From: Streptosporangium saharense
GTDB lineage: Bacteria; Actinomycetota; Actinomycetes; Streptosporangiales; Streptosporangiaceae
Assembly (NCBI RefSeq): GCF_014203715.1
Contig: NZ_JACHJP010000001.1
Span: forward strand, 186,001-250,000
Direction of reading: 5' to 3'
Length of the DNA: 64,000 bases
Made by a program: the position numbers and the translations under genes. Below are positions 21,129 through 25,504 of this stretch, in pieces (the stretch's first letter is position 1; each line of letters begins with the position of its first letter). The notes under the pieces were generated by a model that was not told the origin of the DNA, searched no databases, and saw only the letters and a list, made by a program, of their open reading frames with translations.

Positions 21129-23066
21129 TCACGGCGGCAGCAGGCGGTAGACGAGGGCGACCGCGAAGAAGGCGGCCGTGGCCAGGGTGAGCAGGGTGTA
21201 GGCGATCCGGGCGGACGGCCCCCACCAGCGGGCCCGCCAGGCCAGCACCGTCGCCGGGACCATCGGTACGGCGAAGACCAGCGCGAGGGTGGCCAGGACG
21301 GGCAGTACGGCAAGGCGCGGGGGGTTCAGCGGAAGGTCGGCCATGAGGACGTTGGGATCGGCCATCAGCAGGCCGAACCCGGCGAGGAAGACCGTGGTCA
21401 GAGCCGCGCAGATCCAGGCGGTGAGGACGGCCAGCCGTGCTTCTCGCGGGCGGCGGATGGCGGCGATCAGGGGAAGAACGAGAACGGCCAGCAGGAGGGC
21501 CAGGGCGCCGGTCGCGAAGAGCGGCAGGGCCAGGCCGGGGGCCTCGTACCACGCGATCCGCTCGTAGACCTCGGCGGGAAGGGCGGAGGAGACGAGGACG
21601 CCGTCCCGGGGGAAGGAGATCCGGGCCTGGCCGCCGCGTTCGGCGAAGAGGCCCGGAGCGGTCTGGACCCAGTGCTGGACCGGCCTTTCCGGGTCGGGGG
21701 ACAGCCCGGTCGTGGTGAGGGTCCCGTCGGGGTTGGCGGTGACGGACGGGGTGGAGAACAGGGTGGCGACCTTCGTCAGGGTGGTGTGGCTGGTGCGGGC
21801 GGAGCGGTAGGAGCCCGCGTGGCGTGAGACGTCCGTGACGAGCGGCGTGAACGCGGGGGCGGCGGGCGTGGGGAAGCGCAGATCGACGATCTGACCGAGG
21901 AGCCGCTGCGCGTCCCAGGCGCCCACCCCCGAGACGCCGTCGCCGTTGAGGACGACGTAGACGCCGAACCCCTGGTCGGGCATGAGAGCCATCGCGTTGT
22001 GGTAGCCGGGGACGTCGCCGTCCTTGTAGAGGAGCCTCCTGCCGCCCCGGGGGCGTTCCTCAAGGACGTAGCCCATGCCGGGCATACGCTCGTCGGCGGT
22101 GAAGTGCCGTTCACGCATCAACCGGGAGACGGGGTCGTCCCCCAACTGGTCGATCATGTAGTTCGCCATGTCGGCGGGGGTGACGGCGGGGCCGGTCCCC
22201 GAGGGCGTCCAGGGGGCGTACTGGCCTTTCTGCTCGACGTAGCCGTCACCCTCGGGCCGGTAGCCCCGGGCGAGCCGCTTTCCGACCGCCGCGGGGTGCG
22301 GCAGGGCCGCGGTCGAACCGGTCATCCGGTGCGCGGCGAAGACGTGCTCCGCGACATGGTGGGCGTACGGCTCGCCGGAGACGATCTCCACGAGGTGGCC
22401 CGCCAGGGCGAGGGCGTAGTTGTCGTAGGCGGTCACGGTGCCCGGGGGCCGTACCCGGGGCGGCTGGCGGTCCCTGAGGCTCTCGGCGAGGGAGGGCAGC
22501 GTCGCCGGGTCCTCCTCCGCGAGGCCGACGAGGTCCTCGTCGAAGCCCGCGGTGTAGGTGAGCAGGTTCTCCAGGGTCACCGGGCGGCCCGGCCAGGTGT
22601 CCTCGATCCTGAACGAGGTCAGGTAGCGGTTGACGTCAGTATGCAGGTCGAGCTTTCCCTGCCTGACCAGGCGCAGTACGGCCTCGGCGGTGAAGACCTT
22701 GGCCAGCGAACCCGTGAGGAAGGGCGTCGTGGCATCGACGGGACGACCCGAGACCGTGTCGGCCAGGCCGTACCCCCTGCTGAGCACCGTCCTGCCGCCC
22801 TCCACGACGACGACGGCGGCACCGGGGATTTTGTCCCTGGAGAGCATGTCCGGCACGAGACGATCGAGGGCGGTGCCGAGGTCGTCGGCCCGATCCTGAG
22901 TGGCGCCGAGGTCGCCTTCCTGGCCTTGGGCTGTCGCCTGGGTGGTGCCGAGGTGGTCAACGGTCGCGCTGGGGCCGCCTGGCCGATCCTGGGCTGCCGC
23001 CTGGGCGGTGTGGGAGGTGAGGAGGACGGCCACGGAGGCGAGGAGGGCGGTTGTGGCTCTCTTCAT
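21129..23066 (-). CDS. Exported serine hydrolase (class C beta-lactamase-like) with C-terminal membrane helices
   Basis: A 645-residue protein. A signal peptide (MKRATTALLASVAVLLTSHTAQA) leads to a short Gln/Asp-rich region with near-repeats (LGTTQATAQ, LGATQDRADDLG). The beta-lactamase/DD-peptidase fold follows, with the SxxK motif in TGSLAKVF and the Tyr motif in YDNYALALAG. After about residue 500 there are five probable membrane helices to the end. This is the common actinobacterial exported serine hydrolase plan, and substrates may be peptides or esters. The ATG at 23066 is chosen for its signal peptide. It is divergent from the tandem sensor kinase. Confidence 0.88.
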   Translation of the reverse strand: MKRATTALLASVAVLLTSHTAQAAAQDRPGGPSATVDHLGTTQATAQGQEGDLGATQDRADDLGTALDRLVPDMLSRDKIPGAAVVVVEGGRTVLSRGYGLADTVSGRPVDATTPFLTGSLAKVFTAEAVLRLVRQGKLDLHTDVNRYLTSFRIEDTWPGRPVTLENLLTYTAGFDEDLVGLAEEDPATLPSLAESLRDRQPPRVRPPGTVTAYDNYALALAGHLVEIVSGEPYAHHVAEHVFAAHRMTGSTAALPHPAAVGKRLARGYRPEGDGYVEQKGQYAPWTPSGTGPAVTPADMANYMIDQLGDDPVSRLMRERHFTADERMPGMGYVLEERPRGGRRLLYKDGDVPGYHNAMALMPDQGFGVYVVLNGDGVSGVGAWDAQRLLGQIVDLRFPTPAAPAFTPLVTDVSRHAGSYRSARTSHTTLTKVATLFSTPSVTANPDGTLTTTGLSPDPERPVQHWVQTAPGLFAERGGQARISFPRDGVLVSSALPAEVYERIAWYEAPGLALPLFATGALALLLAVLVLPLIAAIRRPREARLAVLTAWICAALTTVFLAGFGLLMADPNVLMADLPLNPPRLAVLPVLATLALVFAVPMVPATVLAWRARWWGPSARIAYTLLTLATAAFFAVALVYRLLPP

Positions 23067-23125
23067 GGTCGTCAGCGTGCCGTCGCGGCCTGTCCCGGCA
23101 TCAGTGTCCGGCACCCGAGTTCGAC

Positions 23126-25183
23126 ATGGAGAATGCACGATCAGGGCATATGGTGCATAAAGTGCTGATCGTTCTGGTGGTCCTCGTCGGCGCCGCGTTC
23201 GATCCGCTCCACCCGGTGCCGAGCGCGCCGTTCGCCCTCGTCGTGGCCCTGCAGGTGCTGCACTGCCTGACGCCGTGGCGCGGCCGCTGGTCACTGGCCG
23301 TCCAGGTCCTCCTGCTGCCCTGGGCGGGACCCGCCGCGGCGGGCATGGTCGCGGCGTCGGCGCTGCTCCTCCTGCGCGGGACGGCCCGTTGGTGCCTGTT
23401 CGCCTCGGTGGTCGTCGCGGCGGCCCTGCTGGCGCCCACGACGCCGTTCGAGATCACGCTCGCGGCGCTGAACGCCGCATGCCAGGGGCTCGTCCTGTAC
23501 GGCGTGACCCGGCTCGGCGACACGCGTGCCGCCCTCCAGGCCGCCCGCGCGGAACTGGCCGCCGGGTCGGTCGCCGCGGAGCGCTCCCGGGCCGCCCGAG
23601 AGCTGGAGTCCGTCCTCGGAGGCGCCCTGTCCACGATCGCCACCCTCGCCGGACGTGGGGAGGCCGCCGGACGCGGCGAGACTGCCGGACGCGGCGAGAC
23701 TGCCGGACGCGGCGAGGCCGCCGGACGTGAAGAGGCGGTGCGGATCGCCGAGATCTCCCGGGCGACGGCGGCGCGGGCCCGTGCCGTCCCGGTAGCGGCC
23801 GAACAGGGCCCGGAGCCGGATCTCATGCCCAGGCTCGCGCTGCCGATCCTGGTCGTGGTGCACGCCGGATACCTCGTGACCTCGCTGATCTACCTCGGGG
23901 GACGCCCGGTGCTCGCGCTGGTCGCCGCGGGGATCCTCGGGCTGAACCTCTATCACGCCCTGCCCCGCCCGTACGGCGCGCGCCCCCGGCACGTCGTCTG
24001 GACGGCCTGCCCGCTGCTCCTGCTCACGGCCGTCACGCTCCTGCTTCCCGGGCAGGCCTATCCGCAGCTCGCCGGGTTCGCCGCGGCCGGGTTCCTGGTC
24101 CTCGGGCGGGCCTGGTGGCCGCTGGCCGGGGTGGTCGTGGCCGCGCTCGCGGTCGTGCTGGCCGTACGGGGCGAGGCTCCGGCGGACAACCTGTACTGGA
24201 CGTTCAACGCGGTCGCCGTCGCGGCCATGTTCCACGGGCTGGCCGTACAGACGTCGCTGGTCCTGCAGGCGAGGCAGGCGCAGCGGGCACTGGCGGCGCT
24301 GGCCGTGGCCGACGAGCGCAGGCGCATCTCCCGTGACGTCCACGACCTGCTTGGATACGGGCTCTCCGCGATCACGGTCAAGGCCGAGCTCGCCGTACGG
24401 GCGGGAGAGGAGGACGCGCGGGGGCAGCTCGGGGAGATCGCCGCCATCGCCCGCCGGTCGCTGGCCGCGCTGCGGGCCATCCCGGCCGAGCCCGATCCCC
24501 GGCTCTCGCTGGCCGCGGAGGTCGACTCGGCCCGCGCGGTCCTCCTGGCGGCGGGCGTCGAGGTCACCGTGCGCCGGGAGTCGGACAGGGACGACGCGCT
24601 GCTGGCGATCGTCCTGCGCGAGGCCGTCACCAACGTGCTGCGGCACAGCGACGCCACCCGCTGCCGCATCGAGATCACCCGGGACGGGCTGCTCGTCGTC
24701 AACGACGGCGCTCACCATGCGAAAGGATCGGGCAGCGGCACGGCCAACCTCGTCGCGCGGGTCACCGCGGTGGGAGGCACGCTGACCGCCGGGCGTGACG
24801 GCGGCGAGTATCGGCTGAGGGCGCTATATCCAGCCGTTCTCGGCGGCGATGCGGACGGCGTCGAGCCGGTTGCGCGCGTCCAGCTTGGTGACGATCGCCC
24901 CGAGGTAGTTGCGTACGGTCCCCCTGCTCAGGAACAGCTCGGCCGCGATCTCGGCCAGGTCGGCGCCCTCACCGGCCCGGCGCAGCACCTCGGCCTCGCG
25001 CGGGCTCAGCGGGTTCGGCCGCCCGGTGATGGCGGCGGCGGCCAGGCCGGGATCGACGACGGTCTCGCCCGCGCTGACCCGCCGGATCGCCTCGGCCAGC
25101 CGGGCGGGCGGCGCGTCCTTCAGCATGAAACCGCGTGCCCCGATCTCCAGCGCCCTGCGCAGGGTCTCGGGCCTGCCCGCTGA
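23126..25183 (+). CDS. Tandem membrane sensor histidine kinase with one degenerate DHp copy
   Basis: A 685-residue frame. Block 1: membrane helices (about 10-115), then ARELESVLGGALSTI, which aligns with a HisKA_3 helix but has Glu161 where His should be. A Gly/Arg/Glu repeat linker follows, then a second DHp-like helix (RIAEISRATAARARAV). Block 2: more membrane helices (about 235-385), the active helix RISRDVHDLLGYGLSAI with His406, and a DesK-type ATPase domain (VLREAVTNVLRHS). The usual kinase end falls near LRALYP (about residue 570). No stop follows, so the frame runs about 115 residues further, antisense to the convergent response regulator. An ATG at 23150 is an alternative start. Confidence 0.8.
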   Translation: MENARSGHMVHKVLIVLVVLVGAAFDPLHPVPSAPFALVVALQVLHCLTPWRGRWSLAVQVLLLPWAGPAAAGMVAASALLLLRGTARWCLFASVVVAAALLAPTTPFEITLAALNAACQGLVLYGVTRLGDTRAALQAARAELAAGSVAAERSRAARELESVLGGALSTIATLAGRGEAAGRGETAGRGETAGRGEAAGREEAVRIAEISRATAARARAVPVAAEQGPEPDLMPRLALPILVVVHAGYLVTSLIYLGGRPVLALVAAGILGLNLYHALPRPYGARPRHVVWTACPLLLLTAVTLLLPGQAYPQLAGFAAAGFLVLGRAWWPLAGVVVAALAVVLAVRGEAPADNLYWTFNAVAVAAMFHGLAVQTSLVLQARQAQRALAALAVADERRRISRDVHDLLGYGLSAITVKAELAVRAGEEDARGQLGEIAAIARRSLAALRAIPAEPDPRLSLAAEVDSARAVLLAAGVEVTVRRESDRDDALLAIVLREAVTNVLRHSDATRCRIEITRDGLLVVNDGAHHAKGSGSGTANLVARVTAVGGTLTAGRDGGEYRLRALYPAVLGGDADGVEPVARVQLGDDRPEVVAYGPPAQEQLGRDLGQVGALTGPAQHLGLARAQRVRPPGDGGGGQAGIDDGLARADPPDRLGQPGGRRVLQHETACPDLQRPAQGLGPAR
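23648..23737 (+). repeat. Five tandem 18-bp repeats inside the kinase gene
   Basis: Five consecutive units based on GCCGGACGCGGCGAGACT encode six-residue repeats of AGRGET/AGRGEA type. The three middle units are nearly identical and the outer two have diverged. They lie between the two DHp-like helices of the degenerate copy, so copy number could vary without breaking the frame. Confidence 0.85.
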
Positions 25184-25432
25184 GGTCAGCATGAGCAGCC
25201 CGCACTCCGGCGCCCGCGCCCGCAGCTCCCCGGCCGCGTCGAGTCCGTCCAGCTCGCCGGGTAGCTGGATGTCCAGCACCACCACCTCGGGGCGGAGTTC
25301 GAGCCCCAGCGTGACCGCCTCCCGTCCGGTCGCCACCTCCCCGACGACCCGCATGTCGTCCTCAAGCTCGATCAGCGCGGCCAGCGCCCCCCTGATGAGG
25401 TGCATGTCCTCGGCCAGCAGAACCCTGATCAC
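24824..25432 (-). CDS. NarL-type response regulator (DesR-like), convergent with its kinase
   Basis: A 202-residue regulator: receiver with acidic pair in LAEDM, phospho-acceptor Asp54 in VVLDIQLP, Lys in FMLKDA, and a LuxR-type HTH at about 137-195 (LSPREAEVLRRAGEGADLAEIAAELFLSRGTVRNYL). It pairs by type with the DesK-like kinase, but the two genes are convergent and overlap at their 3' ends, an unusual arrangement. The GTG at 25432 is preferred: AAGGGG lies about 5 bases upstream, and MIRVLLAED is the usual beginning. A GTG 6 bases earlier is possible. Confidence 0.92.
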   Translation of the reverse strand: MIRVLLAEDMHLIRGALAALIELEDDMRVVGEVATGREAVTLGLELRPEVVVLDIQLPGELDGLDAAGELRARAPECGLLMLTSAGRPETLRRALEIGARGFMLKDAPPARLAEAIRRVSAGETVVDPGLAAAAITGRPNPLSPREAEVLRRAGEGADLAEIAAELFLSRGTVRNYLGAIVTKLDARNRLDAVRIAAENGWI

Positions 25433-25504
25433 GGCCACCCCTTGTCATGCGCTCTTTGTCCTAATGATCCCGGTACCCCGCCGCCTGGCGGGGAGCGCTC
25501 CCCA

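Follow-up and report, generated by a model that had tools for sequence, protein, structure and literature searches.

As judged from its sequence, the sensor kinase described here joins a pseudokinase to an active kinase in one chain, and our data support this reading, which the first-pass annotation had proposed. The 685-aa ORF lies at 23126-25183 on the forward strand of the window, the 64,000-nucleotide stretch of Streptosporangium saharense DNA that was analysed, and encodes a tandem sensor kinase of two blocks, block 1 followed by block 2. We think it fairly probable that block 1 is a pseudokinase sensor that tunes block 2 in cis, an arrangement that may provide two-signal sensing in a single polypeptide. 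A pseudo-histidine kinase is described, in part of the text of PMC12632262 (citing Collins and Childers 2021), as a histidine kinase homologue without one or more histidine kinase functions, and by its profile matches and motifs block 1, homologous to these kinases and lacking kinase functions, is a protein of this kind.

Block 1 repeats the plan of block 2, membrane helices followed by a helix pair, as had been noticed in the first reading, and two similar arrays are present in an AlphaFold model of moderate confidence (monomer, window with six named orthologues; pLDDT 75, pTM 0.53). In this model about six membrane helices of block 1 (23162-23515; residues 2-12, 22-36, 42-55, 57-70, 74-90 and the start of 95-173) precede a DHp-like hairpin, placed by profiles and model at 23516-23785 (the helix ending at residue 173 and helix 180-208), and the hairpin 95-173/180-208 leads into block 2. 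No ATPase domain intervenes, in agreement with the first-pass annotation, since the modelled hairpin is followed after 14 residues by the first helix of block 2. Pfam HisKA_3 gave no match to block 1 at E up to 10 in the window or in six named orthologues, and Pfam and NCBIfam searches with block 1 alone returned nothing useful. A TM-DHp-CA profile matched block 1 at iE 3e-19, a score to be read in the knowledge that the seeds include block 2 of tandem chains and that membrane segments can raise scores; because both may inflate it, a DHp-only profile was built from 27 single-block kinases. With this profile the window block 1 scored 28.7 bits against 7.4 for the best shuffle (26 x 40 shuffles, of which 950 scored at all), and all 26 first blocks tried from chains with the window layout, here termed class B, reached at least 15.8 bits. 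When the last membrane helix was trimmed, the window block retained 23.8 bits against 9.2 for the best shuffle, and 24 of the 26 first blocks scored at least 16.3 bits, with L058 and L107 (11.5 and 9.7) barely above controls. In the other direction, a block 1 profile from four orthologues retrieved block 2 of the same chains, for example at E 4.8e-14 in G005. We conclude that block 1 is, on these profile comparisons, a true DHp relative and a diverged copy of a membrane-plus-DHp unit. The concern that block 1 might prove unrelated to HisKA_3 is borne out to the extent that Pfam is indeed silent, but DHp kinship is evident from the more sensitive profiles, from the fixed spacing and from the tree, and comparison with orthologues shows that block 1 is not an unrelated linker. 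A search of PDB sequences with the block 1 profile gave DesK H188E as its best match, which at E 0.19 was too weak to serve as evidence of homology and was discounted.

Block 2, by its motifs, is a HisKA_3 or DesK-type histidine kinase. Its membrane helices (23828-24232, from the model) are followed by the last membrane helix, signalling helix and DHp (24179-24478, from Pfam and the model), which match Pfam HisKA_3 at E 9.3e-11 and contain the phospho-acceptor His406 (codon 24341-24343) and the next Asp within RDVHDLLGYG. The ATPase domain (24509-24832) is placed by its motifs, by the DesK profile match and by VIA-align of the model; it carries the N-box as TNVLRH, DxG as NDG and G2 as GSGTAN, and Pfam HATPase_c stays below its cut-off there (14.6 of 26.4 bits). 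The label DesK-type, given to block 2 at first reading, is right, because a profile of the chain matches solved DesK (3gig) at E 2e-29 over profile residues 357-551, and every catalytic motif is present. In the AlphaFold model block 2 consists of a long helix (340-413) and a return helix (416-439), and then the ATPase domain; Foldseek and VIA-align on the whole model probed essentially this block, above all its ATPase domain, and were uninformative for block 1. At H+5 of block 2 (24356-24358), the place of the DesK phosphatase Gln193, the window has Tyr, as do 17 of 26 class-B second blocks, in contrast to His in 22 of the 25 second blocks of class A, a sister layout with a complete but degenerate first kinase.

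Homology, conservation and gene order are shown at the level of sequence, and the phospho-acceptor position of block 1 was compared across orthologues. Glu161 (23606-23608) and His406 were found where the first-pass annotation had put them; numbered from the GTG start discussed below, they are residues 149 and 394. In 23 core orthologues, window included, position 0 of block 1 is never His and is acidic in 21, with 12 Glu, 9 Asp, 1 Gln and 1 Ala, so that the H-to-E change sought in homologues recurs in about half of them. The first 17 of these blocks have E 9, D 6, Q 1 and A 1, and six orthologues added after the pattern had been noticed are all acidic (E 3, D 3), two of them (L119 and L124) with a frame break further on. 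Around this position all 17 core first blocks have ERxR (-9, -8, -6), G+4 and L+7, and L-1, L+3 and S+8 are almost as constant. The residues at 0 (His), +1 (Asp) and +5 are altered; as the spacing is fixed across core first blocks, the loss of His is not an alignment shift. Position H+5 of block 1 is Ser, Thr, Gly or Asp, and not Gln or His. Outside the core, the site was read in ten class-B chains, six with R, Q or G and four with His. In these four (L103, L106, L105 and L114) the first block has no ATPase domain, and block 2 might in principle phosphorylate its His.

The mechanism that we favour draws on DesK. According to part of the text of PMC5231405, the DesK H188E variant is called phosphomimetic and was used to trap the complex of the phosphotransfer state, H188 is buried and bonded to the dimer mate in the phosphatase state, the kinase switches as its first DHp helix rotates and its second shifts, and the DHp is the surface on which the regulator docks. 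DesK of Bacillus subtilis is a HisKA_3 thermosensor kinase with a single module, to which the window chain adds a dead copy in front; its H+5 is Gln193 where block 2 of the window has Tyr, and its H188E variant carries the same His-to-Glu change as Glu161. We infer by analogy that block 1 dimerises, transmits a signal and bears a phosphomimetic residue. Block 1 would sense through its own membrane helices and dimerise via its hairpin. The second hairpin helix would relay its rotational state to the membrane helix with which block 2 begins, and so set the balance between kinase and phosphatase activity in block 2. The acidic residue in place of His would act as a built-in phosphomimetic, since two acidic residues facing each other would make the buried packing of the phosphatase-like DesK state unfavourable and keep the hairpin exposed. 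This phosphomimetic reading of the site could be a coincidence, because acidic residues are common on the block 1 helix, among them those at positions -2 and -7; the R, Q, G and His found at the site in class-B chains outside the core also speak against it.

Among other explanations, one that has perhaps a modest chance of being correct takes block 1 as a second membrane sensor whose hairpin is merely a mechanical connector, the acidic residue having no special role. It draws on the lower dN/dS of the block 1 membrane part than of its DHp in four of eight class-B pairs, and on the class-B chains outside the core, which tolerate R, Q, G or H in place of the acidic residue. Against it, the site is acidic in 21 of 23 core orthologues while neighbouring positions vary, and ERxR and G+4 are unchanged in all 17 first blocks that were compared. 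That block 1 is instead a decaying relic without function seems unlikely to us. Its catalytic residues and an ATPase domain have been lost and the window copy has undergone an 18-nt repeat expansion, and in the two window pairs the dN/dS of the block 1 DHp (0.45 and 0.58) exceeds that of the block 2 DHp (0.25 and 0.26). Against this, block 1 is retained across genera and families with its acidic site conserved, and its NG86 dN/dS is below 1 in all eight class-B pairs (0.16-0.45 for the membrane part, 0.20-0.58 for the DHp), in the range of block 2, although these pairs share members and NG86 is crude at about 73% GC. As dN/dS is below 1 and within the block 2 range, block 1 does not look to be freely decaying. 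Ratios near or above 1 occurred with tiny dS in some class-A and very close pairs (1.89 for the block 2 membrane part of L033/L035, 0.93 for the block 1 DHp of L092/L095), and the block 2 membrane part of L048/L039 gave 1.02, all of which are uninformative. The repeat itself (23647-23727, 4.5 copies of an 18-nt unit) lengthens the loop of the window's block 1 hairpin and is absent from four co-aligned orthologues. Frame breaks within or after the first block in L031, L052, L119 and L124 may represent either sequencing error or decay.

Docking of the response regulator on block 1, which would then be a decoy or a phosphatase or relay surface, we regard as improbable, and slightly more so than decay. 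The DHp is the docking surface in DesK (in part of PMC5231405), S+8 is kept in 15 of 17 first blocks, and the His kept in block 1 of L103, L106, L105 and L114 would permit relay there. The contacts argue otherwise: the equivalent of DesK Leu200 (H+12) is Val in 16/16 second blocks, and in the 17 first blocks it is Ala, Gly, Thr, Asp or Arg, with Ala or Gly in 13, which makes docking on block 1 unlikely; H+13 Lys is replaced by Leu in 16/17, and H+5 is neither Gln nor His. Finally, a chance resemblance of an unrelated helical linker would agree with the failure of Pfam HisKA_3 to detect block 1, but profile scores far above shuffles, retrieval of block 2 by the block 1 profile and the existence of intermediates with a whole degenerate kinase leave it next to no credibility.

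The reading of block 1 as a cis-acting pseudokinase can be set among its relatives. The class-B layout is present in Microtetraspora fusca, Streptosporangium canum, Nonomuraea dietziae, two Actinoallomurus species and Nocardiopsis potens, that is, across five named genera of related actinomycetes, and also in further genomes of the window's family. Among 200 sampled genomes of this family, 14 have a match to the class-B first-block profile at E<=1e-60, and 44 have class-A first-block matches at E<=1e-80 (45 loci, part of them read residue by residue); these cut-offs are our own, and with 11-14 candidates scored per genome the counts may be low. In the first kinase of class A, His is replaced by Asn (15) or Ser (11) in all 26 tree rows and the N-box Asn by E (16), D (7) or G (3) in 26 rows, only 12 of the 26 still have the G2 Gly, and the DxG Asp is kept in all 25 rows aligned there; the second block has His in 25 of 25 rows. 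Seven of ten class-A first blocks match Pfam HisKA_3 at E up to 10. One class-A first kinase, when modelled, has an ATPase-like fold with a pLDDT of about 82-91 that falls to 67 at residues 301-310; as the alignment was made of active relatives, this gives weak support for the fold. Other tandems differ again: L075 (the same locus as L059) has all motifs in both kinases, and L084, L087, L088 and L091 have the reverse polarity, with an intact first kinase and Asn or Gln for His in the second, which in L087 also has no ATPase domain. The chains form a graded series, from two intact kinases through a dead but whole first kinase to a hairpin only.

A tree of 152 blocks places the first blocks of class A, the second blocks of class A and the core first blocks of class B in well-supported groups of their own, and the reverse-polarity chains with most of the doubly intact ones form a separate group with support of 99. 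As to a duplication common to classes A and B, their first blocks are grouped together weakly (SH-aLRT 83; 72/75 in another tree). Long branches meet in these trees, and AU tests rejected none of three alternative histories (p 0.31-0.43). The two blocks may have arisen by one internal duplication or by fusion of neighbouring paralogues, between which the AU tests do not separate. Pairs of kinases in the same frame, split by a single stop codon, are present in L110 (403-3252), L112 (278-2896) and L113 (1-3006; all in kinase-strand coordinates); these abutting pairs resemble an unfused forerunner, and the upstream kinase of L113 has Asn at the His position.

Pseudokinases that act on other kinases are familiar from several systems. 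In JAK-type tandems of eukaryotes a degenerate copy precedes an active copy in one chain, which for the window kinase is an analogy only, as fold and chemistry are unrelated. DivL of Caulobacter has Tyr in place of His; it is a separate protein with PAS domains that acts on CckA in trans, does not belong to HisKA_3 and keeps an ATPase-like domain, and RocA of group A Streptococcus, unlike the window's block 1 a separate protein, belongs to a different kinase class. As described in part of PMC4211667, DivL is a pseudo-histidine kinase that, like block 1 in our proposal, is derived from a kinase and regulates another kinase, and in part of PMC7380576 RocA is a pseudokinase that tunes the active kinase CovS. 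Pseudo-histidine kinases are therefore already known, and what would be new here is the cis fusion ahead of an active HisKA_3 kinase; one open-licence library, preprints excluded, yielded no description of HisKA_3 tandems with the pseudokinase ahead of the kinase. The His is missing in 56 of 16,025 HisKA_3 domains (0.3%), according to part of PMC12632262. Class-B first blocks are probably uncounted in surveys of this kind, as Pfam detected none of the seven tried and they would escape surveys based on it. More tentatively, and with the odds in our view somewhat against it in this full form, the Streptosporangiales may repeatedly have built cis pseudokinase-kinase chains in which either copy of a duplicated DesK-type kinase could die. 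In one class only a hairpin would be left of the dead copy, and a natural phosphomimetic residue, nearly fixed there, would determine which state the active kinase adopts. If this is true, these chains are a bacterial histidine-kinase counterpart of pseudokinase-kinase tandems, with a first block invisible to Pfam-based surveys. The graded series of chains makes the regulation of a live module by a dead one testable within a single polypeptide, and window-type chains offer a setting in which one regulator and a likely target gene adjoin the kinase.

The regulator is a convergent NarL/LuxR-type response regulator (Response_reg and GerE by Pfam; 24824-25438, reverse strand), and the putative target is a divergent PF00144 serine hydrolase of the beta-lactamase family (21129-23066, reverse strand), in which visual inspection suggested a signal peptide and membrane segments near the C-terminus. 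Block 2 would phosphorylate the regulator, which would probably control the hydrolase and the kinase itself via conserved promoter boxes. The convergent regulator is present at 15 of 16 core class-B loci compared and was not found at L056 within the stretch compared. Of the 16 other core loci, 13 have a homologue of the hydrolase beside the kinase; 12 of these homologues are divergent and the one in L056 lies on the kinase strand, and none was found beside the kinase in L042, L055 or L058; PF00144 was assigned by Pfam to the window and L040 copies, and the others were recognised by homology to the window copy. Among the other genes around the window kinase, those for TauE, Band 7 and Rieske proteins had no counterpart beside orthologues, and the ABC ATPase gene had only distant ones there (27-31% in L042 and L043), a comparison that is a fair test only at the six 12.5-kb loci, most other stretches being short. 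In Actinoallomurus spadix (L043 5974-12232) a class-B and a class-A tandem kinase are adjacent, each with its own convergent regulator.

Two conserved boxes occupy the divergent promoter of the window (23102-23137), reading CAGTGYC, 17 nt and RTGNAGAAYGCA on the forward strand. Of 17 sequences, the window among them, 13 carry the pair with at most 2 mismatches, as scored on the same 17 from which the pattern was derived; the spacing is 17 nt in 12 of these and 16 nt in L048. In L046 and L052 the first box alone is well preserved, and L056 and L058 have neither. A scan of the window genome that allowed up to 2 mismatches hit the pattern at this site only, the reversed control also giving 1 hit, and no further site pointing to a wider regulon was found in this genome. 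The first-pass annotation had begun the kinase at ATG 23126, which sits inside the second box, whereas the conserved start lies elsewhere; translation probably starts at GTG 23162, which is conserved among orthologues. A -10-like TATAAT or TAAAAT lies shortly upstream of the GTG in several of them, and this closeness suggests that the kinase transcript is leaderless.

The part of the kinase common to orthologues thus runs from this GTG to the position of the orthologous stop codon (23162-24883). Codon 24881-24883 is CAG in the window and TAG, the orthologous stop, in eight aligned relatives with a 60-nt overlap, and the frame therefore continues for 300 nt to 25183, antisense to the regulator gene. 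Locus comparison marks the residues after about 585 (the last 100 or so; 24884-25183) as read-through from the antisense strand of the response regulator. The 3' overlap between kinase and regulator is 60 nt in eight loci and 81 nt in three, three have none, and in the window it reaches 360 nt.
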